A DNA stretch of 44,096 nt from a virus. Position 1 is the first letter of the stretch. Every line of letters begins with the position of its first letter. The translations under genes and the position numbers were made by a program. Below are positions 1 to 35,300 of this stretch, piece after piece. The notes under the pieces were generated by a model. It had not been told where the DNA came from and did no database searches. It saw only the letters and a program-made list of their open reading frames with translations. Location of the stretch: positions 1 through 44,096 of IMG/VR virus record IMGVR_UViG_3300049739_000221; one strand, written 5' to 3'.

Positions 1-707
1 CATGCACTATCATTAGGTAGCATATCATCAAAGGTCTCCCAGGGAGTCTTCATGATATCATTGATCAAGTAAGATCTAAATCCTGTGCAATCAATGAATA
101 GATCTGCTTTCAACGTTGAATCATTGTCGAGATGTAAACTCTCTATGTTGCCAGACTCATCTAGGTCGGCATTAATAACATCTGCTTCAATGTGCTCTAC
201 ATTCTGACATAGATTATTCTTTAACCAAGTTGCAAACTTAGTAGCATCGAAGTGGAAACCTGTATCTCTCTTCAGAACAAATCTATCAAAGTCTTGGGTT
301 GGTATTCTACCCTCATTAACTGCTTTCATTTGTGGAGCATACCAATCAGCATAATCACTCACAGACAATCCTGGAGTAATTGCTTTGTGTATGAACCACG
401 CAGTCGGATTTTTCCTTGTGTCTTGTGTTGTAAATGGATAGTGAAAAGGATCTTCTTCGTTGAAGTTTTCAAACCTTACACTAAATTTATATGTGGCATC
501 ACATTCTTCCATCCATGAATCATCAAGATCAATAAAGTTCAACCACTTTCTAAAAAACTGAGTGGTAGATTCACCAACACCGATGGTAGCAATAGATGGA
601 GACTCGACAAGAGTAATTCGTTTATCAGGAAAAACTCTTGAGAAAGTTGCCGCAGACATCCATCCAGCAGTGCCACCACCGACAATGCATATTGAATTGA
701 CTTTCAT
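1..707 (-). CDS. Flavin-dependent tryptophan halogenase family protein (C-terminus beyond window)
   Basis: The frame opens at ATG 707-705 and runs off the left edge with no stop, giving 235 residues of an enzyme that is usually about 500. Seen in the sequence: a Rossmann FAD motif G10-x-G12-x-x-G15 followed by W16 (GGGTAGW), the GVGES segment at residues 43-47, and K74 in the context ATYKFSVRF, which lines up with the catalytic lysine (K79) of PrnA/RebH. Further on are GFHFDA and DLFIDCTGFRS, both typical of the family. Known for the family: FADH2 and O2 make HOCl/HOBr, which the lysine relays to an aromatic substrate. The WxWxIP motif should lie beyond the window edge, so activity and substrate cannot be judged. 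It follows the 153-aa gene by 15 bases and has no clear Shine-Dalgarno sequence. Likely an auxiliary metabolic gene; its role during infection is unknown. Confidence 0.88.
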   Translation of the reverse strand, partial: MKVNSICIVGGGTAGWMSAATFSRVFPDKRITLVESPSIATIGVGESTTQFFRKWLNFIDLDDSWMEECDATYKFSVRFENFNEEDPFHYPFTTQDTRKNPTAWFIHKAITPGLSVSDYADWYAPQMKAVNEGRIPTQDFDRFVLKRDTGFHFDATKFATWLKNNLCQNVEHIEADVINADLDESGNIESLHLDNDSTLKADLFIDCTGFRSYLINDIMKTPWETFDDMLPNDSA

Positions 708-722
708 AATATAGAGATGTTA

Positions 723-1184
723 TCAGTTGTCGTTAGGGAATTCGGGGGGAATCAAATCAGAATTGGGTAGATAGTTCCACGAAGGATCTTCGGTTCCATG
801 AATTTTTATTCTAACTTTTCCTTCAAAGTTAGATGCGTTTGCTTCGTATGAACGCTGTGATTCGATTTCTGCCTTTACTCTATCTACATTGGCAACCCAT
901 TCTCCATCAGACAAATGTCCTGATTTAATATCTTTAAAGAGTAGATCAAGTTGATCGCCAATGTCTCCATAGGCAATCTTTCTTTTCATGTTTTGATCGT
1001 AGTCAACTTTCTTTTCTGGAGAAACCCACTGTCCCTCAGAAAGATGCCAGAGAGCAGTTACTTCGTCATCAGGACAAAGCACCCACTTAAGGGTAGCATC
1101 TTCTCCGTTATAAACAGGGAACTCGGAACCAACTTCAACGACTTCGCTGATTAGTCCTCTGTAATCTACTAATACTCTTTTCAT
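723..1184 (-). CDS. Conserved protein of tail-fibre region, possible fibre-assembly factor
   Basis: A 153-aa acidic soluble protein with no signal peptide or membrane segment. Residues about 60-110 contain the pattern MKRKIAYGDIGDQLDLLF followed by GEWVANVDRVKAEIE. A similar 'YxxixDQLDxLyxDi...W...i..VKa.i' segment is common in small phage proteins encoded beside tail fibres (XkdW-like or fibre-assembly proteins). This similarity is recalled from family patterns, not searched. It lies directly downstream of three tandem glycine-rich fibre-tip candidates, the place where T-even phages put a gp38-type chaperone or adhesin, which supports but does not prove a role in fibre assembly. A CTAAATAT element 23 bases upstream may give it its own late promoter. 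Confidence 0.7.
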   Translation of the reverse strand: MKRVLVDYRGLISEVVEVGSEFPVYNGEDATLKWVLCPDDEVTALWHLSEGQWVSPEKKVDYDQNMKRKIAYGDIGDQLDLLFKDIKSGHLSDGEWVANVDRVKAEIESQRSYEANASNFEGKVRIKIHGTEDPSWNYLPNSDLIPPEFPNDN

Positions 1185-1206
1185 TTTTAAAAAATTTTTC
1201 TCTTTA

Positions 1207-1214
1207 ATATTTAG
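1207..1214 (-). promoter_or_regulatory. Candidate late promoter element CTAAATAT
   Basis: On the minus strand this reads CTAAATAT and overlaps the TAA stop of the glycine-rich gene just upstream. It lies 23 bases before the start at 1184. It resembles the T4-type late -10 element TATAAATA and the CTAAATA variants seen at other gaps in this window. No -35 is expected for this class. Confidence 0.35.
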
Positions 1215-1975
1215 GAATATTCGTATACAATAACAACACCATCTTTTCCAGTAGCACCATGACTGTAGTAATGATAACCACCTGATCCGCCACCACCAGC
1301 AGCAACTAGTTCTCTATTATTGTAAGCATAGTAACCACCTTGTGGGTGTCCAGCAGCACCACCGCCACCGAAGAAAGAGTCTCCTCCGCCAAATCTTCCA
1401 TAATATGAGTGACCAGCACCGCCACCTCCATAGATATTTAGATCACCACCAGAACCTAGTCCAGGAAGACCACCACAGTGTTGGTGTGCGCTATTGCCAC
1501 CACCACCTCCAGTAGCAGACATAAAGGAACCAAATGAAGATGTTCCACCAGCACCTGCTCTACCTGAGTATGATGTATATGCAGATGAACCTTGACCAAC
1601 AGTAACAGTTACACTACTAGTTCCAGTAACATCAATTAGTTTTTCTGAAAATCCTCCAGCAGCACCAGATTCTCCATAACTAGAAGCCGCACCACCACCA
1701 CCAACAATTTGGACAAGAACTTTTGAAATACCTGATGGTCTATTCCAAGTTCCACTGGAAGTAAACGTTTGAATACTTCTGGGACCAGAAGTTGAGAAGT
1801 CTAGACTTCCACTACTATTAACATAGAGTGCTTGACCTTGATTACTTCCAGTCGGAGTTGGAGGTAAAGTGTCGCCATTAATTAAAATGCCATCGACAGA
1901 TATACTATAACCTGAAGGAATATTAACGACACCACCTTGTGCCGCTTCGATATTATTTACTGATAGAGTGCTCAT
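1211..1975 (-). CDS. Glycine-rich tail-fibre tip/adhesin-like protein, paralogue 1
   Basis: 254 aa. The N-terminus (MSTLSVNNIEAAQGGVVNIP) is the 'VNxIxxxxGxxVxIPxG' opening common in marine phage fibres. Residues about 80-105 show TFTSSGTWNRPSG then VLVQIVGGGGA, the entry to a glycine-rich domain (Gly_rich_2-like). The C-terminal 150 residues are strings of GGGG separated by aromatic/His segments, including HQHCGGLPGLGSGG and GHPQGG, and end in DGVVIVYEYS. By analogy with glycine-rich adhesins such as T-even gp38, this could be a packed polyglycine-II tip whose inter-glycine loops contact the host; that is inference. It is the last of three tandem paralogues and starts 1 base after the preceding stop, so it is probably cotranscribed and translationally coupled. 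Confidence 0.75.
   Translation of the reverse strand: MSTLSVNNIEAAQGGVVNIPSGYSISVDGILINGDTLPPTPTGSNQGQALYVNSSGSLDFSTSGPRSIQTFTSSGTWNRPSGISKVLVQIVGGGGAASSYGESGAAGGFSEKLIDVTGTSSVTVTVGQGSSAYTSYSGRAGAGGTSSFGSFMSATGGGGGNSAHQHCGGLPGLGSGGDLNIYGGGGAGHSYYGRFGGGDSFFGGGGAAGHPQGGYYAYNNRELVAAGGGGSGGYHYYSHGATGKDGVVIVYEYS
1449..1474. repeat. 26-bp direct repeat, copy A (glycine-rich paralogue 1)
   Basis: A 26-base block here is identical to 2215-2240 in the next paralogue, 766 bases away. It encodes the GGLPGLGSG segment. The third paralogue carries a diverged version near 2973-2998. Such blocks are possible sites for recombination between the tandem genes. Confidence 0.85.
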
Positions 1976-1976
1976 T

Positions 1977-2741
1977 TTATTTAAATTCGTATACTACTAC
2001 AACGCCACTTTTGCCTTTGGCACCTTGTGTGGATGTATGATAACCAGGACCGCCACCTACGCCAAAAGCAGCAGAGTCAGAATTATTGTGTGCATATTGT
2101 CCACCTTGTGGGTGACCAACTGCCCCAGATCCACCAAAAAATGATGTCCCTCCATCCCCACAACCATAGTAAGAATGTCCATTTCCGCCACCACCATAGA
2201 GGTTAACGTCTCCTCCAGAACCTAGTCCAGGAAGACCACCGCAGTGCTGGTGTGATGTGTTTGCTCCATTACCACCAGTTGCCGATAAATACGATCCAAA
2301 TGATGTTGTTCCACCATTACCTGATCTTCCCGAATATGTGGTAGAAGAAGATGAACCTGCCCCAATAGTTACTGATACACTACTGATAGAAGTTACATCA
2401 AGTAACCTTTCTGAATATCCACCAGCAGCACCAGATTCTCCAACACCTGAACCTGCTCCACCACCTCCTACAAGTCTTACCATAATTTTGGTAACACCAG
2501 ATGGTCTAGACCAAGTTCCGCTGGAAGTAAATGTTCTGATAGCAACTGGACCTACAGACTCCCATCCAATGGAAGAACCATTACTTGACTTTAGAAATTT
2601 TCCTGAATTAGCAGTTCCTGCTGTTGGAGGCAAAGCATTTGAATTGATTGGAGTGGTATCCAAAACCAATTCATGACCCGAAGGAATACTAATAGTGTTG
2701 CCTGTTTGTGACCTAAGCTCGTTTACTCTTAATACTGACAT
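1977..2741 (-). CDS. Glycine-rich tail-fibre tip/adhesin-like protein, paralogue 2
   Basis: 254 aa, the same length as paralogue 1 and alignable along its length. The N-terminus is MSVLRVNELRSQTGNTISIP; the middle has RTFTSSGTWSRPSG and MVRLVGGGGA; the C-terminal domain holds HQHCGGLPGLGSGG, NLYGGGGNGHSYYG, SFFGGSGAVGHPQGG and ends GVVVVYEFK. Differences from paralogue 1 concentrate in the segments between glycine runs, as expected if those are exposed loops. The start is supported by GGAG about 9 bases upstream. It begins 1 base after the stop of paralogue 3. A long plus-strand open frame inside it (2257-2676) is an antisense by-product of GC-rich codons. Confidence 0.75.
   Translation of the reverse strand: MSVLRVNELRSQTGNTISIPSGHELVLDTTPINSNALPPTAGTANSGKFLKSSNGSSIGWESVGPVAIRTFTSSGTWSRPSGVTKIMVRLVGGGGAGSGVGESGAAGGYSERLLDVTSISSVSVTIGAGSSSSTTYSGRSGNGGTTSFGSYLSATGGNGANTSHQHCGGLPGLGSGGDVNLYGGGGNGHSYYGCGDGGTSFFGGSGAVGHPQGGQYAHNNSDSAAFGVGGGPGYHTSTQGAKGKSGVVVVYEFK
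2215..2240. repeat. 26-bp direct repeat, copy B (glycine-rich paralogue 2)
   Basis: Identical over 26 bases to 1449-1474. It marks a recent common origin or ongoing gene conversion between the two glycine-rich paralogues. Confidence 0.85.
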
Positions 2742-3500
2742 TTATCTATACTCCATGATTACGATGATACCTGTTTTCCCAAGTCCTCCTGAGTATGATC
2801 TATAATGCTCTCCTGCACCACCACCACCAGGAGCAGAATTTTGAGAGTGGTTGAATGCATACGCTCCACCTTGTGGGTGTCCAGCAGCACCACCGCCACC
2901 AAAGTAACTAGATCCGCCTCTATGATTATATGTGACGTGACCGCCAGCACCACCACCATAAAGGTTTACTGATCCTCCAGATCCAAGTCCACCATGACCA
3001 CCACAGTGTTGGTTTACACTGTTGGCACCTCTTCCCCCAGTTGCGGACATCAAACTTCCGAATGATGTTGTTCCACCATTACCACTAGATCCAGAATAAT
3101 ATGTTGCAGTTCCAGAACTTCCTACAGTGATTGATATTGTTGATCCAACACCGCCCAATTGCTGAACAGTAAAGAATCCCTCAGCATAACCACCAGCTCC
3201 TCCAGACTCTCCATGTCCAGACCCACCTCCACCAGCTCCACACAATTTAACGTGAACCATCGAAACATTACTAGGAACTACGTAACTTGAGTTACTTTGA
3301 AACTGAATAATTCTTACAGCACCATAGTCACCAAACTCATAGTTAGTTCCATTAGAAAATACCATCTTACCTGCTTGGGGTGTAGGTAAGATAGTGTTTG
3401 AACTTAGTTGCGTTCCAGCAAATGACAGTGCATTGCCAGCTGGTATAGTTACAACAGTTCCAGTTGATGACTGGATGTTATTGACGTATAGTGAACTCAT
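2742..3500 (-). CDS. Glycine-rich tail-fibre tip/adhesin-like protein, paralogue 3 (most diverged)
   Basis: 252 aa. The N-terminus (MSSLYVNNIQSSTGTVVTIP) matches the other two paralogues. The middle differs: RIIQFQSNSSYVVPSNVS replaces the TFTSSGTW segment, followed by VHVKLCGAGGGGSGHGESGG. The C-terminal glycine-rich domain has NQHCGGHGGLGSGG, NLYGGGAGGHVTYN, YFGGGGAAGHPQGG and ends IIVIMEYR. It is the first of the three to be transcribed, with a perfect TATAAATA late element 53 bases upstream inside the end of the giant 3494-aa gene, so the three tips may have a separate late promoter. No clear Shine-Dalgarno sequence precedes the ATG, which sits 2 bases after the upstream stop. Confidence 0.75.
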   Translation of the reverse strand: MSSLYVNNIQSSTGTVVTIPAGNALSFAGTQLSSNTILPTPQAGKMVFSNGTNYEFGDYGAVRIIQFQSNSSYVVPSNVSMVHVKLCGAGGGGSGHGESGGAGGYAEGFFTVQQLGGVGSTISITVGSSGTATYYSGSSGNGGTTSFGSLMSATGGRGANSVNQHCGGHGGLGSGGSVNLYGGGAGGHVTYNHRGGSSYFGGGGAAGHPQGGAYAFNHSQNSAPGGGGAGEHYRSYSGGLGKTGIIVIMEYR

Positions 3501-3502
3501 AT

Positions 3503-6500
3503 TTAGACAACCGACCAGGAAGAACCGTTTGGAATAACGACGACTACACCGTTATTTATAGTTAGAGGACCTGCACTCATAGCATTTGTTGCTGAAGGAA
3601 CTGTGATATTTTCGTTGACTGAATTACGGTTTGTTTTAAAAACACCATAAGTATCAATATACTGAGGATCTGCGTTTGCATATACAACACTAGTGTTTAC
3701 ACCAGAACTGAAAGTAGAACCTCCAACATTAACGGAACCGTCATTGACTTGAGATCCAGATACAACTAGAGGAGCAGTCTCTAAGGTATAAACTGGGTCA
3801 GATTTGCCAACACCAACTTTAGACAGTCTCCAGATGTTATTAGTAGTCTTATTCAGTGTCCATCTTGAAGTAACAAACTCTTCATTGTTTTGGAAGAGTT
3901 GACCATTGAAGTTCAGGTCACCTTGAATATTCAGTTGATAGTTTCTAGATACAGGTGTTGATTCTGATGTATCAGTTCCACTAAAGTTTTTGGTATTAAT
4001 TGCAACTCTATTAGTAGAACCTTGAATGAACAGTGCAGGAGTAGCGTTCCATGACTGACCACCATCTTGGGTGCTTGCAGTAATTTCAAATGCATTATTT
4101 TCTAACAGTTGGTTGCCAATTCGGAAGTTACGGAAACCAGAGGCACCTAGGAAGTATGCAGGAGCTCCTGCATTAGCAGAAGCATCTTGAATTGACAGAG
4201 AAGACTTAGCATATACATCTTTGATATATGCATTTCTCCATCTGTTATTGGTAGCATTCAGACCCAAATCTTGAGTAGACAGGAGAGGATAAAGATCACC
4301 TGAAGGATCAAGAGTCAACTTATTGCTAGTAGTTCCACTCTCAGAAGTTCCCCAAGTGATTGAAGTGTTTCCACTATTGGACTTCGATATTTGATAAGCG
4401 ACACCGTTAGTGGTATCGTATACAATACCGAAACCATTAGTAGTTCCAATCGAATTAGAACCACTTCCAGAAGCAATGGAGAAGGAACCACCAACCACAG
4501 ATAGTTTATCTGATGGGACAAGAGTTCCGATACCAACTTCTTCTTCGGATTCATCTACAAATAATACATTAGTTCCGATAGTAAGATCGTTATCCATGGT
4601 AACGTCACCAGTCAAACCAGTGATTCCCTGAACTGATAGACCAGAACCAGCACCTGTAATATCCAAGGTGCCAGTCATTGTATCACCAGATTTCAATACG
4701 TTCAGTGACGAAGCACCAACGATACCATCAAATCCTGCTTTGACTGTAATTTGATTAGCAGAGAAGTCACCCGATCCATCACGCATTACTGCGCTTCTTA
4801 GTGTTGGAAGACCAAGACCATCGTAGGTAGTAACAATATTGGTGTCATTAAATGCAACGTTACCTTCATTCCAAATAATGTTTCCTTTGACAGTGAATCC
4901 ATCAGAATCAACAACTTGAACATTTAGTGTTCCAGAACCATCAACTCCTGTTCCTCCAGTTGCAACAATAGATGAGTTGTAATTTGCAGCAAGTTGAGAA
5001 GAACTGAAGTAAATGCCAGGGTTAGATGCATTACCATCTGTTCTACCTAGGCGTAGATTAGCAGTTCCTCCATCGGATTCTAGAATAGCAATATCAATAT
5101 TGTTATCATCTGCAATCGTAAAGTCTTGGAACTCAACTCTATTACTTGCTGTTCCAATTGTCAGAGCACCCGTAAATCCACCAGAGATCAGTCTTGCTTG
5201 GATAATTGTATAATCGTTAAAGTTATCTGAAGTATCATCGTTGATAATCAAGTTATCAATTTCAAGATCACCAATTGCCTGTGAGTTGGCATTATAAACT
5301 TTAACCGCATTACCAGGAGTGAATGGGTTAGGTGTAGGTAGAGTTGATAGAATTCTGCCTGAAACGTAAATGTTATACTTAGGATCACCATTGAAAGACT
5401 TAACCTTCAGGGTATTTCTGAAAGAAGTTGCTGCTTGGAATGTAGGTAATCTATTTGCAGAAACTGTTCCATAGTTAATGTTTAGAGCATTTTGATACCA
5501 TGTTCCTTGCTTATTATCAAGGCGGTCAGCATCAAGACCTGTATCAATACCATCGTTTTCTGATGTCCAGATTTTAGCCCATGTTCCAAATGTAGCAACA
5601 CCAGTTCCAGAACCACGCAACCACATGTTGTCGTTGTCTGTGAACGCCAACTGTCTAATGCCACCATATGTAGCGTCAGGACCAGATCTTAGGGTCAGAA
5701 CCATATGCTTGGTTCCGCCATCAACTAATTGGTCGGCGTTGTTATTCTTGGTATCAGAAATAATACCTGTGCTGAACGTATTTGGAGATGGGTTAGAGGA
5801 GGGGTTGTTAATACCACTCAGCAGTCTGATAGTATTCTGCGACTGACCAGTAATATTAATATTATAACTTCCTGCTAATCTATCAGAATCAAGTGTTCCT
5901 GAAGTCAAACTACCTGCGTTCTGATAGAAAGAACCTTGCTTACCATCCAGCAAGTCAGCATCTAGTCCAGAGTCAATACTGTTGGCAGCAGTCTTCAGTC
6001 TGATGGAACCTTCTCCACCAACGTTAATAAAGAACTGTGCCTTATCGAATCTAGCAACACCAACTGTTCCGTATTCTGGGTCAACAGAACCTTCTTGAAC
6101 TCTATCAATATCAACAGTAACGTTTGCATACTGTCTATTAATAGTAGATCTCTTACATCTAAGATCAAGACCAGTTCCACTTCCTAGGACAGTTGGAGCA
6201 AGATTAGTAGAGAAGTCTTGAGTATAATTAGAACCACCACTAGTGATTAGAACATCAACAACTTGATTGTTTTCTACAATATAAGTTGCCTTTAACCCTT
6301 GACCATTGCCACCGACAACATTCTGGTTGAAATATTCTCCATTGGTAAATCCATTACCACCATCGGCAATAATGATTTCTTCAATAAAGTTACCTTCGGT
6401 AAATGTAGAGTCAAATCTGATTGGAGATGTTGCTCTTCTAAACTCAATAATTGTTCCAGCTGGAATTGTTGAGGTTAGTGCTTTTTCTTGAGCAAATCCA

Positions 6501-14542: not shown

Positions 14543-17500
14543 TTACTTTACGATTTGAGAGACTACAGTGAACTTAATGGTGTCATTGGTAGAATGATCA
14601 CTTGTTAATGTTAAAGAAATTCTAGCGTTGCCTTCAATGTCAAAGTCAAATTCTGCAGTGGCACCGTCTTCGTTGGAGTTTAAACTTCCATATTCATTAT
14701 AGAAAATGTCTGTGCCATTATCAATGACACTAAACTCCATCATAGAAGATTTAGCAGACAAAGCATTCTCCATAAACACAAGAACTTTACATCCTTTATG
14801 ATCTGTTTTATTGTATAAAAGAGCAGAACCATTTTCTGAAGTTCCTTTTACAAGATCAAACGTAGATGTAAGAACTTTGTAATCTTTAATTTCAAATTCA
14901 GTTAGATCATTATTTAATATTTTTAGGTTTTCTTCATTGCCAGTTCCGAATGCAGTATTATAAAAAATATCTCCAGTATCTTCAATAGTGAGAATAGGAT
15001 CAACTGTCAGACCACCAGACATACCAAACTGTAGGTATTGTCTAGTATTGTAAATAAATGTTCTATCAGATACTGTATTATCTAGAACAAACTCATTGTT
15101 ATCAACGGTTAGTCGAGTGAACTCAAGAGCAAGACTTGTATTATTGATTGATGTAATGGTATCAATATTAGTCAAGTCTAAAGATGCAGTGCTAAGTTGC
15201 ATCGTGTTGGTGTTATCATTATAGAAGTAGAGAATGTTCTCGTTAGCACCAGGAGAAGTCTCAGGAATAATGTAAGTATTTTGATCAACGTCCTTGACTC
15301 CACCAAGAGAACCCCAGTTACCATTATCATCGTAACCTTCAAATTGACTTGAAGATGTGTTAAATCTAACAGATCCAGTTGCTGGTGCTCCTCTCTCGTC
15401 ATTATTTCCAACAGGAAGAACTAATGTGCTAGTTGCATCAACAATAACTTTCTTACCAGCATTTGGTTGAAGTTTTAAGTCATTGATGTCTGTTGAAATG
15501 ACGTTATTACGAAGACGCAAATCTCCACTAATAGTAAGATATGTGTCACCAAACGGATCAATCTGGACCTCATTAATTTCTTGGAATAGGAGGTTTGATA
15601 CAGCAGTTGTGGAATATGTAAGTTCTGATGTATTATTTGGAAGTGCTCCAGAAGTATGCGTTGGAGCGTTTCCATCAGTAGCAGTAACACCAGCAACAGT
15701 TACTTCGTAAATATTGTTTCTATGCTTTAGATAAGAACCCAGAGATACAGGTGTGTTAGAGGTCCATTCTGTATATACTGGAGCAGATGTATTGAGAGAT
15801 GCAATCTGCTTTAATTCTTCAAACTTAAATTTCGTTGGAGTAATTTTTAAAGTATTACTATTGCCGTTATAGAAGTAGAAAGTATCGTCGTTTGCTCCTA
15901 CACTTTCTTCTGCAGTTACATATGTATTACCATCAAGGTCTCTAATGCCACCAAGAGAAGACCATGATGAAGTTGCAGAACTGTAACCTTCATACTGAGT
16001 AGTCTGGGTGTTATATCTGATAGCACCATTTTCTACAATTCCTACTCCAGGTCTTGCTCCAGTATTTCCAGCAGGAATAATAAGAGCAGTAACTGCATCA
16101 ACCTTAACAACTCTGTTGGGAGCAGGAGTCAACGTTACATCATTAGTTCCTGTGGTGAAAATATTAGCATTTTCAATCTTAAGGATATCAGATGAGTTGA
16201 TAGTCCCCGTAGTTTTAATAGTTCCTGTAGTTGTGAGATCTCCAGTATCTGTAGTAACTTCCAACAATGCAATAGCATTTTCTGAAGGAGGAACAAAAGA
16301 TATTTTTTGTCCTTTAATGTTTACTGGACTTGTGAGACCAGTAGACTGCAGTAGCAAACCACCAGGAGAAGTAATAGTATTTGTATTTACTTCTACTGAT
16401 GCAGTAAAATTATTTGCAAATACATCAGTAGAATTTACTGTCGTGATATCTGCAGTTTCTGTGGCAACTGAAATAGCATTAACATTACCAGAACTTACAT
16501 CTAAAGTAATATTGTCTGTTGAAACAATAGAAGTTACTAAAATGTTTAGTCCAGAACCAAACGTTTTTGGATTGTTTGTATCAATAGTGATCTGACCAGT
16601 AGTGGCATCAGCACCTGCCATATTTGGATGCTGAGCACAATAATAATAAAGTGTAGGAGTAGCATCTGTTGGTTGAATAGTAGTATAGTCATTTTCATAT
16701 ACTACCTCTGCACCATCATATTCAACACCTTTGATCAAGATTGGCGATGTTCCACTTGCTGTAGCAGCGTCACTTAAAGTAATTATATTTCCATTAATTG
16801 ATACTACAGTAGTTGCTGGTGCTACATCTCCAGTATCAGTAATCGCTCCGCCCTCTCCTCTTTCTACTGTCATTCCAGGCAAAACACTGGAAGCATCTGT
16901 AAGTGTTACTGTAGATACTCCCTCAGTAAGAGTTACATTGTCCTCAATAGTATTATGAGTTCCTAGTGGGTGAATAGAGAATCTAAATGGATGACTTCCA
17001 GCAGCAGAGTAATCAAATTTGTATGTATTTTTAACAAACAAAGATAAATTTGGATATCTAGTAGGAACACCATCACCAGTATCAATCGTATACCTGTTTA
17101 CATTTTCAGTGGTGTCTATTGTAAGACCACCAATAGTGTCATCTCCAGAAAGAGAATCAGTTCCACCAACAGAGAAAGTTACTAGTGTAATTGATCCTCC
17201 AGATGTTACTACTTCTTCTGCTACTGCAGCAATTGTAGTTGGTGCTCCACCAAAGGGATCTGCTCTACTGAAGTTATATGAAGTTCCTGAAACAAAAGTT
17301 CCAGCTGGAACAGCAGTTGTAAAGGTTGCCTTAATCAGACCTTCAATATCTACAATATATTCAATTGGATTTGTTAGGTCTAAATTAAATACAGTTAAAT
17401 TGTCATCAATACTATATCCTTCGCCTTCTTGATTAACAGAAACATTAGTTACAACACCTAGTTTATCGATAGTATAAGAATACCCAGTTCCTGTTCCCCA

Positions 17501-18379
17501 TGGAGCCTCGAAGTTAAATACTGCACTTCCAGTAGCATCTCCATTACTAGAAACAACAATTGTAGTAGCATCAAGAACTTGACTTACAGTAATGTCTCCA
17601 GCAATTGGTGCTGCTAAGTTACCAGTTCCTGATACTTTTGTTACAATGAATCCTTCAAGAATTCCAGTCGTATCTGCAACTGTAAGTTCATTAGACTCAT
17701 CAGTAACTGTTGCTGTAATATTATTGACACCAGTTGGAAGAGTTAAAACATCATTAAGTTGATAGTTTCCATCTCCATAATCAGTAATTGATGTAGAACT
17801 AAATCCAGTAGATCCCGCATCATATTCAATTGTTACAACAACATCAGCACCGTTCCCGCCCTGTAATGATACATTAGAAAAATTTGATCCACCAGTTCCT
17901 CCAGCAGAATCTGGTGCAGTGTATCCAGATCCTCCTATTGTAGATCCATCAAATTCAGAAACGGTAAGGTTTAAAGATCCTGCTTGACCAGTTCCACCAA
18001 TGACTGCAATATTCTGAAATGCTCCAGGATCGTAGTCTTGACCAGCAGCAGTGATTTGTAATCCCCCAGTTTCAAGAACATTTTTCTGGAGAATAACATT
18101 CCTGTAATACAGGGAAGATTCATTTTGTATCTGGTGGAGTTTCTTTCCATCAGATACAAATGCTAGTGTCTTTGTTCCTGGTCTAAAGATACCAACAGAT
18201 GTGTCATTAACAAAAGAAAGCGATGGTTCCGTTCTGGTTCCATCACCCAACCTTAGAAGACCTGTAGATAAATCACTTCCACCACCACCAATAGCAAACA
18301 AATCTGCTGCTACTTGGTTAATAGTTTGTCGTTGCTTCTCAAATGTGTCTGATTTAGCTACGTTTCTAAGAATTGCCAT
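14543..18379 (-). CDS. Fibre-like virion protein (1278 aa) with a split cupredoxin-like domain
   Basis: 1278 aa. Residues about 60-100 hold EPSLSFVNDTSVGIFRPGT and LAFVSDG, a common fibre-base motif. Residues about 428-600 resemble a cupredoxin: strand NLSLFVKNTYKFDYS, then H463 in AGSHPFRFS, then C581-x2-H584-x2-M587 in LYYYCAQHPNMAG, the amicyanin-like spacing of a type-1 copper site. About 75 residues lie inserted between the His and Cys strands, and they resemble another unit at residues 226-300. Two copies of a 'RP..G.IRYNT..QYEGY..W..LGG' module lie at about 765-850 and 985-1067, separated by a YEVTVAGVTATDGNAPTHTSG unit. The C-terminus (MEFSVIDNGTDIFYNEYGS) looks like a distal tip. It overlaps the 60-aa gene by 14 bases. 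Copper binding is predicted, not shown. Confidence 0.8.
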   Translation of the reverse strand: MAILRNVAKSDTFEKQRQTINQVAADLFAIGGGGSDLSTGLLRLGDGTRTEPSLSFVNDTSVGIFRPGTKTLAFVSDGKKLHQIQNESSLYYRNVILQKNVLETGGLQITAAGQDYDPGAFQNIAVIGGTGQAGSLNLTVSEFDGSTIGGSGYTAPDSAGGTGGSNFSNVSLQGGNGADVVVTIEYDAGSTGFSSTSITDYGDGNYQLNDVLTLPTGVNNITATVTDESNELTVADTTGILEGFIVTKVSGTGNLAAPIAGDITVSQVLDATTIVVSSNGDATGSAVFNFEAPWGTGTGYSYTIDKLGVVTNVSVNQEGEGYSIDDNLTVFNLDLTNPIEYIVDIEGLIKATFTTAVPAGTFVSGTSYNFSRADPFGGAPTTIAAVAEEVVTSGGSITLVTFSVGGTDSLSGDDTIGGLTIDTTENVNRYTIDTGDGVPTRYPNLSLFVKNTYKFDYSAAGSHPFRFSIHPLGTHNTIEDNVTLTEGVSTVTLTDASSVLPGMTVERGEGGAITDTGDVAPATTVVSINGNIITLSDAATASGTSPILIKGVEYDGAEVVYENDYTTIQPTDATPTLYYYCAQHPNMAGADATTGQITIDTNNPKTFGSGLNILVTSIVSTDNITLDVSSGNVNAISVATETADITTVNSTDVFANNFTASVEVNTNTITSPGGLLLQSTGLTSPVNIKGQKISFVPPSENAIALLEVTTDTGDLTTTGTIKTTGTINSSDILKIENANIFTTGTNDVTLTPAPNRVVKVDAVTALIIPAGNTGARPGVGIVENGAIRYNTQTTQYEGYSSATSSWSSLGGIRDLDGNTYVTAEESVGANDDTFYFYNGNSNTLKITPTKFKFEELKQIASLNTSAPVYTEWTSNTPVSLGSYLKHRNNIYEVTVAGVTATDGNAPTHTSGALPNNTSELTYSTTAVSNLLFQEINEVQIDPFGDTYLTISGDLRLRNNVISTDINDLKLQPNAGKKVIVDATSTLVLPVGNNDERGAPATGSVRFNTSSSQFEGYDDNGNWGSLGGVKDVDQNTYIIPETSPGANENILYFYNDNTNTMQLSTASLDLTNIDTITSINNTSLALEFTRLTVDNNEFVLDNTVSDRTFIYNTRQYLQFGMSGGLTVDPILTIEDTGDIFYNTAFGTGNEENLKILNNDLTEFEIKDYKVLTSTFDLVKGTSENGSALLYNKTDHKGCKVLVFMENALSAKSSMMEFSVIDNGTDIFYNEYGSLNSNEDGATAEFDFDIEGNARISLTLTSDHSTNDTIKFTVVSQIVK

Positions 18380-26873: not shown

Positions 26874-28757
26874 TCAGAACTCAATTACCAACTTAATGTC
26901 TTCAATTTGGTCAGCAGCACGGGTGATCAGTCTTCTGTTCTCGACATAGATGATGTCACCAGAGTTCTGCTCGATCTCTGGGAAACCGAAACCATTGGTG
27001 AAACTGATACCAAGAAGCGTGGTTGCAGTAACGCCAGTGTTAACAGCACCAGAAGCGAGTGATGCAGCACCAACAATGTTAGCACTATCATCGAATGCTC
27101 TTACAACACCTTGATCAGCATGAAGATCAGGTGACTGGATATACTTAAGAACGCCATCCGTAGTTGAACCAGCATCAAGCGTCCAGGAAACAACGGTGCC
27201 TTTAGCAGTTCCACCGCCAGCAAGTGCTTGGGTGATTGTTTCGTCAGAAACGTAATCTGCGCTTGCTCCAGTAATCTTAGCAGCATAGAGACCGTTCAAG
27301 GTATCCAGGACTGCAAAGTCAGTAGTGGTCCAGTTGAATGGGTCCTTGATGATGCCGATACGACGGAAGTCGTTATCAACAGGGAAGTCTCCAGAACCTT
27401 CAGCATAGGTCAGACGAATGTTGGTCATGACACGCTTAGCGTTCAGTTCCAGTTCAAAGTCAGCACCGTGACCACCTTGAGGAGGAAGAACAACTTCCAG
27501 AGCACCTGTTCCACCAACACCAGTTCTAGCGGTGGTTAGTGCTTGCTCTGCATACAGACCATACTTGATACCACCAACAGTTGCGCCGTCATCCAGTGCA
27601 ATACTAGCGTAGGTATAACCTGCACCGTTAACAACCACTTCTGTAGATTCAATCGCACCAGCGGTAACGACAATCTTCACAACAGATTCGGTTCCAGATA
27701 CTTGACCATCGCCAAGGACAGGTGCATAGTGGGTTCCGTTAGGAAGACCCGATCCAAGATCCTCAACTAGAACAACGTCGATAGCACCATCAACAGCAGC
27801 TGCTTCTGTAGCAGCACGAGTTGCTTCGCCAGCCAAGTTGATTGGCATGAAGTTGGTAGACAAGAAGCGCAGAACGTCATCGGTAGGGATAGTATACATA
27901 TACTTCCAAATGTATCCCGAACCAGCAGTGTTAGCAACTACTGCATCAGCACTCTCGGTGAAGAGACCGCTTCCTGCATCATAGGTTCCTTGACCTGCAG
28001 AAGGAGTAGTCTTTGGTTCGTATACAGGGTTAGGATCTACCTGACCTGGGAACTGACCATTGTAGATACACTTGAAGACTTCGTAGTTCGAGTTAATTAC
28101 ATAGAACTTAGAAGCACCAAGACTAGAAGCACCAGTAGTGGCTTGCTTGCCTACTTGACCAGTGGTCGTTGCGGAGTAGTCAGGCTTATACATATCGAAA
28201 CGAGGCTCGGTAGCGAGCAGGTTCCAATCGTAACGAGTGATAACAGCACGAGCGAACTGATCGGTGATACGCTTAGCAGCGATAATTTCGTCATAGACGC
28301 TGAACTTCTCGATCTGGTTGTCCAGAGGAGTAGGAGGGGTGTCTTCTGTTGCGTAACGGTATACACCAGCGCGTGCCTCAGCGCCAGTATCTGCTGCTCC
28401 GTTCCAACCCTCAAGAACTGCATTAGGCAGTGGGGTTGCGTTTACGGAAGGAGTGACATCACTTAGGATCAGTGAATTGTCATATACCTGTTCGATTGAA
28501 GCTTTGAAAGGGGAGTTTGCAAAAGTGTAGCTTCCGTTAGTATCGGATGCAACATAAACGAATTGGTTTTCTGCGAAAGCGACAGCGTTCTGTGAATAGA
28601 TTTCAAGAAATGCATCCCAGCGTTGGGGGCGACCAACAAAGAAATACATTCTTGTCTTTTCAGGACTATCTTCTGCTCCACCAGCGGGCTCACTAAGAGA
28701 CTCCAAAAACTGTTTAGCATTAAAGATTCTAAACTTATCTGAGATGATTGCAGCCAT
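26874..28757 (-). CDS. gp8-like baseplate wedge protein (627 aa)
   Basis: 627 aa, larger than T4 gp8 (334 aa). The opening AAIISDKFRIFNAKQFLESL, then RMYFFVGRPQRWDAF and later YDEIIAAKRITDQFARAVI, YKCIYNGQFPGQ-like NYEVFKCIYNGQFPGQ and GYIWKYMYTIPTDDVLRFL, is the pattern I associate with cyanophage proteins annotated as baseplate wedge gp8. A single GAGYTYASIALDDGA unit near residue 375 belongs to the module shared with neighbouring giants. Its position after gp25, gp6 and the gp7-position gene agrees with T4 wedge order. A strong TATAAATA element lies 35 bases upstream. Assignment rests on pattern memory and synteny, not on a search. Confidence 0.7.
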   Translation of the reverse strand: MAAIISDKFRIFNAKQFLESLSEPAGGAEDSPEKTRMYFFVGRPQRWDAFLEIYSQNAVAFAENQFVYVASDTNGSYTFANSPFKASIEQVYDNSLILSDVTPSVNATPLPNAVLEGWNGAADTGAEARAGVYRYATEDTPPTPLDNQIEKFSVYDEIIAAKRITDQFARAVITRYDWNLLATEPRFDMYKPDYSATTTGQVGKQATTGASSLGASKFYVINSNYEVFKCIYNGQFPGQVDPNPVYEPKTTPSAGQGTYDAGSGLFTESADAVVANTAGSGYIWKYMYTIPTDDVLRFLSTNFMPINLAGEATRAATEAAAVDGAIDVVLVEDLGSGLPNGTHYAPVLGDGQVSGTESVVKIVVTAGAIESTEVVVNGAGYTYASIALDDGATVGGIKYGLYAEQALTTARTGVGGTGALEVVLPPQGGHGADFELELNAKRVMTNIRLTYAEGSGDFPVDNDFRRIGIIKDPFNWTTTDFAVLDTLNGLYAAKITGASADYVSDETITQALAGGGTAKGTVVSWTLDAGSTTDGVLKYIQSPDLHADQGVVRAFDDSANIVGAASLASGAVNTGVTATTLLGISFTNGFGFPEIEQNSGDIIYVENRRLITRAADQIEDIKLVIEF

Positions 28758-28816: not shown

Positions 28817-29347
28817 TCACTCAGGACCAGAAAATTGGATCATTTCATCGTTATTATTTAGAGTAGTCGGACCAGTTTTTACGTATCCCGTAAATGTAGT
28901 CGCAGTTTTCTCCGTATATTCAATCAATTGTCTCGCGGCAGTGAAGATATGACCACTGGTCTCGAAACTTGATGTTGCAATTACATTAATGATGGTAGGA
29001 TTCTCCGCATCCACTGATATAGTTTGGTTTCCATCTGCCATGGTGACTCCCATAATCATACTTGAAGGACCAGCATTGAACTTATCACCTGATAGAGTGA
29101 AGGTAGACTGTGGTCTCAATTCAAAATCTCTAATAGCAAGTTGCGGAAACGCTCTTTGAATATCTTCAATAACATGATCACCTTCAAATTTAATAAACTC
29201 AAAATCTCGTAGTGTGTATGTAACAGCACCACTAGTAAATGATGAAAATCCATCAGGGATTCTCTTTCCAAAATTAGTGACATCGATGGTGTTGCCATCT
29301 CTTTTTAAGACAGTTCTAAATCCTGCTGCTAATTGTAATTCTGGCAT
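28817..29347 (-). CDS. Virion structural protein between gp7-position and gp8-like genes (176 aa)
   Basis: 176 aa, soluble, beta-rich. It contains FRTVLKRDGNTIDVTNFG and a repeated-looking C-terminal half with SSFETSGHIFTAARQLIEYT. I do not recognise a characterised family. It is coupled to the 3328-aa gene by a TAATG overlap (one shared base), and a late promoter follows it, so it closes a cotranscribed gp25-gp6-gp7-position block. A baseplate or connector role is inferred from this context alone. Confidence 0.72.
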   Translation of the reverse strand: MPELQLAAGFRTVLKRDGNTIDVTNFGKRIPDGFSSFTSGAVTYTLRDFEFIKFEGDHVIEDIQRAFPQLAIRDFELRPQSTFTLSGDKFNAGPSSMIMGVTMADGNQTISVDAENPTIINVIATSSFETSGHIFTAARQLIEYTEKTATTFTGYVKTGPTTLNNNDEMIQFSGPE

Positions 29348-32300
29348 TAGTTTCTAGTTTTAATTGATGTTTCTAGAACGACAAGTTCAGTATAGTAGTC
29401 AAGGACACCCATCTCTCTTTGTAGCATAACATCAGCAGGTTTTTCACGTCCTTCATGCTGTGGGAGATGTGCTCTCACAGTATATGTAGATGTTATAGAT
29501 GGTCCAGCAGTAATTGCAATAGATTCAATCGTCGTGAGAGTAGCGACGATAGCAAGATCCAGTTGCTGTTGAATCTGCTTAGGTCCATCTTCAGACGAAC
29601 CACCAAGAATACCACCATCAGCACCTCTTGGGAAGTCAACCAGAGCAGGAATGCTTTCTGGAGTTACAATTACTCTGGAGATTGTATTAGTCAACAGAGC
29701 ATTCATAGATGCTTTAGCAGGTTGTGCCGCAGCGTAGAGTTCTGTGGTGATGTTTCCAGATACACTAGAGATTGCAGATACTGTTCTGAATCCTTCAAAC
29801 TTAGTAATCTCAGTCTGAGTCTGGAGACCCAGTTCGATATTGATCTGAACGTCAATCTCCGAGATCGTAGTCGTAGAGGCAATAGTAACAACGTCACTAC
29901 TGATGGATTCTACACTAGCATTAATTTGCGTAATCTTACTAACACTTCCAGCAATTTGCTCTGCACTTACGACAGTTGTTGGAGGAATGATTGTAATCTG
30001 CTTAGTAATGTCATAATCAAAGTATAGGTCAAGATCAAGATTTCTGGTAGACTGGATGAAACGATCATCCAACATTCTAACTTCAGTATCATGTGTTACT
30101 GTGTTAGTAACAACGATGACGGTCTCTGGAGAGATAGCGACGGTTTCTTGAGCAGGAGTAGCAATACTCCTGATTCCGACTTCGATAACTGGAGTGACGA
30201 CAGGTGTAATAATCTGGAACTCGTTCTCAATCTCGATGTAGCGAGCATCAGACTGTTTGATCTCCTGCTCACTGATAACTTGTGACTTAAGTTCAACCAA
30301 CTGAGCGGAAGACATTCTGACTTCAGACTCAGTAATAAGGATAGTTGCAGGTCCAACAGGCAGGACAGTAACAAATTCAGGTAGAGTTCTAAGATACTGA
30401 CCAGCATTATGTGCTTGTGCCGTAGATCCTTCAATACCTCTAGTGAGATCAAGGAATCTGTCTCCAAGAGTAGAATTGTAAGCAACAATCTCTTTTCCGA
30501 TCTGCAATTTGCCTTGCGATGGGAACAGACTTGTATTTCCAATATATGCAGTTGTTCCTGTTGGAGATAGAGGAGCATCGAGGAATGCACCTGTTACACT
30601 GTAGGTATCCTGAGCAGCATAAACAATAGGAGCATTGATTTGCTTATGTAATGTCGATGTAATTACATCCACACCCATTTCAGGAGAGATATCTGTAATA
30701 ACAGCAGTTGGTGAATCAAGAGTTACCGTAATAGTAAGTTCATTGATATTAAGTTCGGATGCAACCTGATCGAATGCGCCAGATGCTTCTCTCTTGGTAT
30801 ACTGATAGTATTCTGCTTTTCTAAGTTCTGTTCCTGCTTCGCGAGCAGTAGTATGGAGTTCTGTGATAAAGACAGAATCTGCCTTTACTTGGTCGCCAGC
30901 AAGACCACCAAGTGCAATAATAGAAAGAACACTAGAAACAGCACCTTCGCCAGTCAACAGAATTTCTGTTTGAACAACAGATAAGGCACCACCACCTGCA
31001 ACTTCCGTATTTACACTAATAATAGTTTCAGACTTAACTACTCTAGTAGGATTCCTCTTAACAAAATATCCTCTAGTGACAACTACTTTGGGTGGTTGAG
31101 TATAACCAAAACCACCATTTGTTAATACAACATCTAGAACCTGTCCATCTTTCGTAAGAACTTCTGCTCTAGCACCACCACCATTACTATCAACAGGAAC
31201 AAACTTGAGTTGTGGTGGAACAAAGTATTGATATGCTGTTGGTTGTAATAGAATACCAGTATTGAAGAATAGAGCAAGATCCCTCTTGTTCCACTCAAGA
31301 TCATTAAATCCAAGAGAAACAACACGACCAGTTCCATCAATTTGACTGGTTACGCTAAGACCCTCTCCTCTAACAATACCATTGTAATTACTTACATCGA
31401 CTTTAGAGAAGTGCTCATACTTAGCAGTCTGACCCAATCCAAAGTTTCTTAGATTTGCTTTACCAGGAACATACTCAATTGTTCTAAATTCATTCTCACC
31501 ATCAACTAGGATTTCATCTCCAGCAATGATTTCCAATTCAGTATTGTTTCTTATATCATATACTGAGTTTCCATTCTCAGAACCTCTCAACCATTCAGGA
31601 ATATCTCTAGCAAGCAAACGCTTACCTTCATCATCTACTGGATATGAAATATCAATCGAGAAAACACTGTTGATATTATTAAAAGAAATTGGATTCGAGA
31701 AATCTGCTTTATCGGAAACATAAATTGCAGAAACTCTAGTGTCATCAGCAGTATTTTGTGTTGGATCATATGACAACTCAGAAAAATCAATGTTCGATGC
31801 ATTCAAAAGTGTGAATGTAAAATCAACTGGTGTTACACCAATTTTTGAAGATCCATTTGCAGTTCCATCTTCAAGTTCATCAAATCTTATTAGAGAAATC
31901 TTTCCTAAGAGTTTTCTAGTTCCATCTGAAGTGATGGTAAACAAATTCTTAGGAGTAGTTGGATTGAAACTATACAATCTACTCTGGAATTCATTATATT
32001 CTTGATTTCCAGCAGATGTATCGATAACTCGCTGACATCTAATAATAATCTCATTAGTAAGACCAACACGATCATAATCATAGAATGATAGAGTCTTGGG
32101 GACATCTCTACCATACAGAGAAATCAACCTTACATTGTTCTGAACTGATTGACCAGTTTCAGGAATATAACGAGTAAGATTTGATGTGAATGTGATATTT
32201 GGACCATTGATTGTATAAGAGTCTGGATTTTGCAGAACTCCATCAACAAACACCAAGACAAATCTGCCATCGGTGATGTTCTTGACTCTACCATCAACTT

Positions 32301-35300
32301 CACCAAAGATTAGATAAGGACCTGTTCCTCTATATGGAATCAAACGATTATCAATTTTGAATCTATCGTAACTACCGACTCCATAACCAAAGAAAGTCTC
32401 TCTTTGATCTAGTTGAACTGGAACAGGATCAATATCGTCTGCAAAGTTTCTAGGTGGTTCTGCAAATACAATCGCATCTGCTTGTGATCCATTTCTTCTT
32501 AAAATATAATATGCATTACCCAATGGTGCTTCTGCAGACTCTTTTGCTTCTTGCAAAATGCCATTGATAAAGATCAATAATTTCTCACCAGGATCTGCCT
32601 TTACAGCAGTGCCATCTTCCCAATATAGATCAAACTGATTCGCAATTCCATCAAAATTAGGAGAGATGTCCCTAAGTTTTCTTAGATAACGAGAGTTGAA
32701 AGTATCGTCTTTGAACTTAAATGCTTTACAGATTAGTGATGCAGATTCAGTCTCGTAAGTATCATCTAAGTTCTCTCCTGTTTGTGGGAAGAGAGGACCG
32801 AGAGGAGGTTCATTAAATGTTATCTGTGAACCAGATACTTTAAATGATTTGCCAGGTTCCTGTGCAATTCCATTTATAGTAAGGAATAATTCTTGCTCAT
32901 TGTATGGAGAGTATGCAAGATAGTTTGCTTTATCTACAAGAGTAAATGTTTTTCTACCGAGAATGTTGCCATTACCAATGACACCTTCAACTACATCATA
33001 TGCAGGAGATTTAACTTCGGTAATTTCAAGAGTAATATAAGATGCTGCATTTTCGTAGAGAGTGATCTCATCACCAACCTCAAACTCATATGCAATATTA
33101 GAAAAGTCTGATTCAGTAGATTGAACCAATCCACCAAACTCATAGTCATCACTGGAAGGACTATTAGTAAATTCACCAAATGAGAATAGGTAACCAATAT
33201 CCATACGAATGATCTTGGTCAGATCAAAGATACCTGACCCAGTAGTTACATACTCATCATTAGGAAGAATAGTGTAATTATCACTAGTATCCCAAGATTG
33301 GGTAGAAGAACCAGCACCAACAAAAGGACCAACAGCAGGTTGGTTGTTGCTGTTGCTTACAAGTTTAAATTTAATCCAGTGAGCATAAGCACCAGCTGGA
33401 ACAGTTACCCCACCACTAAGAGAAGTGTAAACTAACGTGTTATCAGCTGCTTTAGTGATTGATCTGATAGAACCTACATAATCTTCCTTACTTGCATAAC
33501 GACCAGTGAAAGGTTCTTGGATAGTTAGTTCTCTAGAAATAATTCCTTCAGTATCATACTCATCAATAGAGATAGAACCTTGACCTCTAATCAAGTTTGT
33601 ATCTGCTACTGTTACAAAGGAATTAGTAACCCTTGTGCTCTTCCTCTCTACAGTTACTGTCTTAGGAGAAAGTTCAATATAACTGATAGATGTAGTAGGA
33701 GTCTGATCAGTCGGCATTGTTGCTTCCTGTTCAGAATCAATCAGAACTTCACCGAACAGTTGGAAACCTGCAGGGTGTGTAGTCTGCTTGATTAGATCTC
33801 TCCATACATCAATAGCAGTTCTAGACTGAATGACATATGAGAAGTCTTGATAGTAGTAAGAATCAGTTACCTTTTGATATCTACTACCAACCTTACCTTT
33901 ATCAGATGCATATCTACCAAGATTGTCAAAATAGGTTCTGATATCAGAATCAAACTCAGTAAACAGAACATCAGATACTTCAATAGATCTACTAGGATCC
34001 ATTGCAGAATAAAGATTTAGGGTGGTGTCTACAACGCCACTTACTTTATTAAGTCTAAGAATATTTGATCCTGTTCTCCAACCTTTGTCAGAAACATAAC
34101 CACTGAAGATTAGTGAAGAACCAACACGCTGCTCTACTCGCTCTCCCTTGTAGAACTTAGCATCTCCTTTGTAGATGATAGCGTAGTTTGATCTATAAGT
34201 AGACTCAATAGTCGCATCATTGTGGAAAGAACCGCCATTACTGATAATGCTAATATCTTGTGGTAGACCGATGCTCTCAGATTCAAAGAATGCATCGATA
34301 TCACCTTCATATACCGATACAATAGGAGCAAAGGTGAAACCACTGCCACCTGCTAAGACATCAATTCTAGTAATTCTTCCTTGATCGCTTACTACACTAA
34401 AGTGAGCACCAACGCCATCTCCATTGGTAACAACTGCTTTAGGATTGATGTAGTTCTTACCACCATTATCAATTTGAACACCTTTAATTGACTGAGTGAT
34501 AGAATCCCACTCTACAGTCAGTAGTGGTTCGTTGTTATCTGTTACAAGACAACCCTCAACAATAGGAGATCTCTTATATCCTTCTCCAAGATTATTAATT
34601 GTGGTCTTAGTGATCTTACCTTCAGCAAAAGGTGAAGATGTTGTGTATATGATGTTACCAGTTCCTTGATAATCAGGAACGTCAGGCAGCTGATATGCAA
34701 ACTTTGTAGATGTTGTGAACTTAACTGTCTTAGGTCCAGTCAAAGGATCATCAATAACTTTCAATGAAGCACTATCTGTATTGACATCACTAGACGCCTT
34801 AATAAAGTAGTAATACGTGTCAAAGTTAACTGGGAATCTCTGTTGAGCAAGACCAGAAATATTAGGACCAAAACCTAATGTGATAGCAACAAATGAACCA
34901 GCGTTTCCTGGTTGAATACCACTTATCTCTTTCTCTTCAGTAAAAATAGTTCCCGTTTTACTAGCAGAGAAATCAAGGAACACACCACTCATAGAAACAT
35001 GACTGGTGTCAAACAAATAACGATAGTATTTCTGAATACGAATGTCAGTGTTTCTACCATACGTTGCAAAATTGACATCCTTAGAAAACTCTAAGTTGTT
35101 TTGACCAGCAGTAGATGAAGCAATATTGATAGACTTTCTAGGAGAACTATCATCCTGGAAAATACTACTGTTAGTAACTTCTCTAGGAGAGGGAGCATCA
35201 TAGTTGTATGCTAGAGTTACCTCTTGAGTGGTTGCATCATAATCAATAATATATGGATCATTGATACCATCGCCAAGAGGTCTTGAGTCTTCTTGGAATC

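Follow-up and report, generated by a model that had tools for sequence, protein, structure and literature searches.

A cupredoxin-like domain with candidate metal ligands in virion structural proteins of marine T4-like phages

The 44,096-base IMG/VR record analysed here, from an ocean virus of cyanobacteria (its whole length is referred to as the window), encodes a 1278-residue virion structural protein containing a domain that, on the evidence of profile comparisons, is very probably homologous to cupredoxins, a relationship reached through a plastocyanin-like bridge subtype. Cupredoxins are familiar as carriers of electrons and as domains of enzymes. Here the domain appears as a recurrent virion module of marine phages for which we did not find an earlier description in the literature searched; among the matches listed (titles and abstract openings, with few subscription journals) none reports a phage virion with a cupredoxin domain. 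The explanation we regard as the best, and towards which we lean on sequence grounds, is that a cupredoxin homologue serves as a virion building block, a metal-stabilised β-sandwich connector in baseplate and fibre proteins, and that its candidate site is under selection as a unit in the orthologues.

The carrier protein and its split domain

The 1278-residue protein (positions 14543..18379, minus strand) matched PHROG 6005, "virion structural protein", with an E-value of 0, and shared 92.7% identity over 100% of its length with a structural protein of cyanophage S-RIM44; a Pfam search returned no family at E ≤ 1. Baseplate wedge proteins are encoded nearby at 26874–28757 and 39340–41148, together with a 3328-residue virion protein that has baseplate-wedge matches and a 3494-residue tail fibre protein. 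We assign the protein to the virion because of the PHROG 6005 match and the adjacent baseplate genes. A reading made from the sequence alone (the sequence-only reading) had described it as a virion fibre protein; these data support the virion part of that description but not the fibre part.

The cupredoxin-like domain as a whole spans residues 429–605 (16565–17095, minus strand) and is predicted to form a β-sandwich, split by a 76-residue module. Its first half (residues 429–476; 16952..17095, minus strand), delimited with the A6 profile and an AF2 model, includes the first His ligand candidate, H463 (16991..16993), and its second half (residues 553–605; 16565..16723, minus strand), delimited with the A6 profile, includes the Cys candidate C581 (16637..16639), the second His candidate H584 (16628..16630) and the axial candidate M587 (16619..16621), all on the minus strand. 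The A6 profile, built from an insert-free alignment of 55 rows and compared with eight window proteins, matched residues 426–483 (i-Evalue 1.7e-4) and 562–589 (i-Evalue 2.3e-6) of the 1278-residue protein, and the AF2 model of residues 429–620, calculated from the 53 sequences of alignment A5, had a mean pLDDT of 91.8. A motif scan and its coordinates located H463 and C581-x2-H584-x2-M587 where the sequence-only reading had placed them, so that the set in this protein runs His, Cys, His and axial candidate in that order (HCHM). The pattern C-x(2-4)-H-x(2-4)-M occurs a single time among the 17 window ORFs scanned, at C581/H584/M587.

The inserted module corresponds to residues 477–552 (16724..16951, minus strand), which were recognised from structural matches in VIA and which have no counterpart in the insert-free relatives of alignments A3 and A6; hhalign related the window family to the insert-free families at 99.4–99.5%. 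An insertion of about 75 residues (nt about 16715–16960) and a second, similar unit at residues 226–300 had both been proposed earlier, and both were recovered: the insert profile, compared with the eight window proteins, matched a second copy at residues 218–291 (17507..17728, minus strand; i-Evalue 3.8e-16), outside the cupredoxin domain. In VIA, the insert (positions 49–124 of the model) had as its first-ranked match chain 8eci_1 of Arthrobacter phage Bridgette (Z 7.6, rmsd 1.8, 66 aligned, 26% identity), and other matches comprised a phage tail tube protein (Z 7.3), tailspikes and Uba1 chains (about 5). From the model we read the insert as a common phage β-barrel lodged inside the sandwich after the first-His strand; it resembles the β-barrel modules of phage tailspikes and tail tubes, of which 8eci chain 1 is an example, but differs from them in sitting within another domain.

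A weak match to the A6 profile that lacks the ligand residues was also seen at residues 1431–1486 of the 3328-residue neighbour (29347–39333, minus strand), and in several further cyanophage records comparable long proteins likewise match the profile weakly at their 3′ ends. Three tandem genes at 1211–3500 (minus strand; 254, 254 and 252 aa) each match PHROG 863, tail fibre assembly, and two of them carry an H-x-H-C motif.

Profile and fold relationships to cupredoxins

A PF00127 (Copper-bind) search of 16 bacterial genomes supplied the canonical cupredoxins for comparison as well as the bridge sequences L230, L235 and L237. The plastocyanin-like subtype, A7, has 26 members (24 viral and two bacterial), 23 of which matched Copper-bind at E ≤ 0.01, the best at 1.6e-8. 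For five A7-type phage sequences the PF00127 score was 18.1–20.1, below the cut-off of 21.2. Against the PDB, the A7 profile retrieved plastocyanin 1b3i (E 3.7e-6) over positions 10–88 of 88, and amicyanin, nitrite reductase and rusticyanin followed among the best 60 of 113 matches. By hhalign, A7 was related to 19 canonical cupredoxins at 97.98% (score 69.7, shuffled maximum 20.1), while the window family without its insert columns reached 97.1% with A7 and 87.5% with the canonical set (score 36.2, shuffled maximum 12.6). The insert-free alignment A6 also reached 97.1% with A7; with the canonical set it gave 15% (score 22.2, shuffled maximum 15.6), or 84% when the three bridge rows were left in that set. 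Each profile comparison had 30 column shuffles as its null, and in the unmasked comparisons none of the 30 reached the observed score. When the four ligand columns were masked, A6 against the canonical set fell into the null (3/30 shuffles reached the score), whereas A6 against A7 stayed above it (0/30), so that the homology rests on the bridge and not just on the motif.

Other profiles gave weaker matches in the PDB: with A1, two LIM kinase 2 rows outranked plastocyanin (E 0.36), and with A3, pseudoazurin was the top match (E 0.24). Pfam searches of 24 A3 members detected no cupredoxin family, and CBM_4_9 matched weakly in 5/24 (best E 0.0086). A phmmer search of the PDB with the window domain returned noise from acetamidase and fatty-acid-binding proteins, aligned for the most part to the insert.

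The AF2 model of the insert-free domain (55 sequences) had a pLDDT of 92.4, and VIA placed rusticyanin first among its structural matches (Z 6.2, rmsd 2.5, 81 aligned), with further rows for purple cupredoxin (5.9), plastocyanin and amicyanin (5.1) and AcoP (4.8). All Z values were under 8, and alpha-dystroglycan (5.7) and Ig domains scored close behind, so the fold alone is not decisive. Foldseek found no PDB match to this model at E ≤ 0.001; the lowest E-values belonged mostly to receptor, adhesin and antibody chains, and an amicyanin chain ranked eighth with a probability of 0.99. If the last stretch is ungapped, the register read from the ends of the VIA alignments would set M95 of the model opposite M98 of amicyanin, M148 of rusticyanin and M171 of AcoP (residue numbers from mutant names), which we take to be the axial ligands. 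With the insert present (residues 429–620), the fold matches listed by Foldseek and VIA fell mainly on the insert, a few Ig-like rows among the best 50 in VIA spanned the whole model (Z up to 4.9), and no cupredoxin was among those 50. Because the listed matches lie mainly on the insert, we did not read the fold of the host domain directly from this composite model.

Could an Ig-like sandwich have gained its Cys, His and Met independently? Ig-like chains score comparably in Foldseek and VIA, and ligand masking removes the direct similarity of A6 to canonical cupredoxins; against this, the A7 bridge retrieves cupredoxins along positions 10–88 of its 88, and the masked A6 still matches A7 with none of 30 shuffles reaching the score. 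We disfavour such a chance origin and judge it very improbable. The cupredoxin-like relationship suggested from the sequence was instead borne out by the profile comparisons, by the insert-free fold search and by the all-or-none behaviour of C581 and H584 described below. The window domain is like the Copper-bind family PF00127 (plastocyanin, amicyanin, pseudoazurin) in its predicted β-sandwich and in the His before the strand, and it has after the Cys strand the Cys-x2-His-x2-Met spacing for which amicyanin is known; it differs in belonging to a virion protein, in being split by an insert and in having no Pfam match.

Joint variation of the candidate ligands

The orthologue set contained 95 rows: the window itself, the best 80 of 195 loci from a scan of viral contigs, and 14 others, 13 of them from named phage records; L002–L004 and L006 were left out as coming from the same contigs or being a near copy. 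Setting aside 19 identical rows left 76 distinct orthologous domains. The search patterns of this viral scan contain no ligand, and the same is true of the patterns used in the genome scan.

At the positions of H463, C581, H584 and M587, the 76 distinct orthologues had the states HCHM (50), HCHE (15), HSYA (4) and HCHV (2), with NSNL, ADIM, VSDI, HNNS and NSAA in one row each. Both C581 and H584 were present in 67 domains and both were missing in nine, neither being found alone. His was conserved at position 463 in 72, and conservation at these positions exceeds what we would expect by chance; the four domains that lack it also lack the Cys and the second His, and five others keep it without them. 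Met occupies the position of M587 in 51 domains, 50 of which keep the His, Cys and His, and where Cys and His are retained the fourth ligand is Met in 50, Glu in 15 and Val in two, making this axial position the freest of the four. C581 is the sole Cys of the window domain, and throughout the set the ligand Cys is the only one (one Cys per domain in 67 rows, none in nine); a disulfide within the domain is ruled out, since it holds one Cys or none. The C-x2-H-x2-M spacing is found in 44 of the 67 ligand-bearing orthologues, and the Cys-His loop is longer in 21 of the 67: it has five or six residues in all 15 Glu rows, and in the Met rows two residues in 44 and six residues in six.

Domains that have lost the ligands are no more divergent than the rest, the mean of median identities being 0.445 (n=9) for ligand-less and 0.446 (n=67) for ligand-bearing rows. 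On a quick orthologue tree, 26 of whose 73 inner branches are open, the fewest changes required were four for H463, six each for C581 and H584 and 11 for M587; well-supported (starred) branches provided only one independent pair, and because of this relatedness a sign test of the C581/H584 coupling cannot reach significance. Free variation of the ligands had been named in the sequence-only reading as an argument against a copper site: variation does exist, but it is not free, the His, Cys and His varying together.

Because lineages retain or lose Cys and His jointly, and the domain stays intact without the site, the pattern fits a structural metal clip. In the mechanism that we propose, a type-1-copper-like site would be formed by His463, Cys581 and His584 together with a fourth ligand that varies (Met587 in the window protein), in a cupredoxin domain into which a common phage β-barrel module has been inserted after the first-His strand. 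The bound metal, most likely copper, would anchor the loop after the Cys strand on the first-His strand, making that end of the sandwich stiffer, and in baseplate and fibre proteins a clip of this kind would help to keep the sandwich together; a lineage that drops the metal would drop Cys and His together and keep the fold. Judging from these sequence patterns, metal is probably bound in at least part of the family, and we put the chance that the role of the module is mainly structural at about even. The data show homology through the profile chain, coupled ligands, the insertion and recurrence in baseplate and fibre genes; metal binding, copper, a stabilising role and exposure on the virion are what we infer, copper being chosen over zinc because of the homology to cupredoxins. 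The Glu found as fourth ligand in 15/67 ligand-bearing orthologues, in which the window family differs from Copper-bind, would suit zinc as well, and the Glu variants may prefer another metal.

A different use of the same residues would be as a redox or copper sensor, an electron-transfer or copper-responsive centre on the tail that senses or reacts with the host envelope and thereby triggers adsorption or contraction. The His-Cys-His set with amicyanin-like spacing in 44 orthologues is compatible with this, as is a separate plastocyanin-like gene, scoring over the PF00127 cut-off, in 11 of 15 cyanophage-related records, all picked for containing the domain or a relative, which indicates that these phages work in copper-using hosts. 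Against it stand the joint disappearance of Cys and His from several orthologue lineages that retain the fold, and the absence of a single conserved redox geometry, given the Glu rows and the longer loops in 21/67. A redox or sensing role of the candidate site is possible, with nothing in the data pointing there; we consider the sensor unlikely and favour the metal-stabilised structural module over it.

Occurrence among marine phages

The insert-free set comprised 112 loci: 80 were viral and 32 came from assemblies of bacteria or archaea, a number of these likely being phage contigs. The A7 set comprised 80 loci. All four ligands (HCHM) are found in 85 of 89 distinct insert-free domains, the other four (YSGV, YSAL) having lost all four, and in 64 of 64 distinct A7-type domains, an invariance that may be slightly inflated because the patterns of the two viral scans concerned, which kept the best 80 of 136 and the best 80 of 112 loci, include one or two segments that contain H or M. 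These counts bear on the idea of a relic, a cupredoxin-derived adhesion or spacer domain in which the ligands persist and no metal is bound in the virion. Ligand-less versions do exist and look equally constrained, and the weak A6 match in the 3328-residue neighbour has no ligands; retention of all four in nearly every domain of two other subtypes, and exceptions that lose all four at once, unlike drift, make us regard a relic as improbable.

The subtype of L235 was matched at E ≤ 0.01 in 274 of 50,697 phage records, 269 of them named Synechococcus, Prochlorococcus or cyanophage. In the S-RIM12 baseplate connector, an N-terminal PF07880 region is followed by about 80 C-terminal residues that are cupredoxin-like with H, C, H and M; this C-terminal domain matched A7 at E 9.0e-14, and the connector had no Copper-bind match at E ≤ 0.01. 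It shares its N-terminal family with T4 gp9/gp10-type baseplate connectors and differs from them in the C-terminal cupredoxin-like domain. This gp9-type connector domain matched 332 of the 50,697 records at E ≤ 0.001, and 30 of the 40 listed bore the annotation baseplate wedge tail fiber connector. The module is also present in genes annotated as gp7 and in tail fibres of P-SSM2, Pelagibacter and Methylophilales phages, and 63 viral models carried the module at E ≤ 0.001. In a Bacteroidetes single-cell genome (L205, 712–12285), one copy lies in a protein at least 3858 aa long that also contains DUF285, FG-GAP and Big repeats. All of the 15 chosen phage records matched A6 and 13 matched A7 at E ≤ 0.01, some matches being weak and ligand-less; at most five candidates were listed per record, and copy numbers may therefore be low. 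The suggestion that such a domain would be unusual on a cyanophage tail is not supported in that form, since many marine T4-like phages have the module, and we rejected the notion of a lone-protein curiosity, given its recurrence in many records and proteins.

More tentatively, and as a reading that we think less likely than not, we suggest that marine T4-like phage tails carry copper, with cupredoxin domains bearing working type-1-like sites at several positions (the gp9 connector, gp7, fibres and the 1278-residue protein) of a multi-copper virion whose metal state would tune tail stability or host attachment. If metal is bound at these sites, cupredoxin-type metal clips would be part of the tail architecture of widespread ocean viruses; the supply of trace metals could then influence how stable the phages are and how they infect, and virions could make up a pool of organically bound copper that has gone unnoticed. 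A domain now annotated merely as part of structural or hypothetical proteins gains a testable property.

Cupredoxin sites usually bind metal tightly. This argues against a lure loaded with metal, the Ferrojan Horse idea transposed to copper, in which tail copper or zinc engages a metal-uptake protein on the host surface, and so do the copy in a giant bacterial protein and the absence of an HxH iron motif from the 1278-residue protein, which was scanned in full. The location of the module in gp9-type connectors and fibres would suit a lure, and a precedent of iron in tails has been argued (PMC11705849), but overall we think it highly unlikely. The same source proposes HxH iron sites in T4 gp37 and other fibres, a likeness in that metal is placed in phage tails; those fibres use paired His-x-His, whereas the 1278-residue protein has none, and an iron HxH fibre was rejected on that ground.

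Virion proteomes of S-SM1 and S-PM2 are cited in PMC3037559, and that of S-CREM2 has been published (Table 3 of PMC10665884). Nineteen S-CREM2 CDS compared with the virion table contained no C-x2-H-x2-M and no HCHM domain, with one weak A6 match, in gp130, so the S-CREM2 proteome does not place the module in the virion.

The cyanophage plastocyanin PetE, an auxiliary metabolic gene product, is a cupredoxin too and often occurs in the same genomes as the module (the 11 of 15 records above), but it is encoded by a separate open frame of 109–131 aa that scores 67–75 bits against PF00127 and lies outside the tail proteins. The window domain is not a stand-alone plastocyanin gene of this kind, lying inside the 1278-residue ORF. 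In S-SCSM2R (L324, 2234–2740), a 168-aa gene annotated as PetE adjoins a peptidase S8 gene and resembles the connector domain of gp9 type (48% across 99% of that domain, E 3e-13); resemblance to the connector domain may explain at least this one PetE label on a phage gene. A protein encoded at 425–5255 of a 181,044-base virus contig (L269) combines a subtilase (PF00082), an A7-type domain that scores 17.8 bits against Copper-bind, below the cut-off, and a weak Ig domain. The 189,106-base contig filed as Prochlorococcus AG-418-C09 (L214) probably represents a phage genome within a single-cell assembly.
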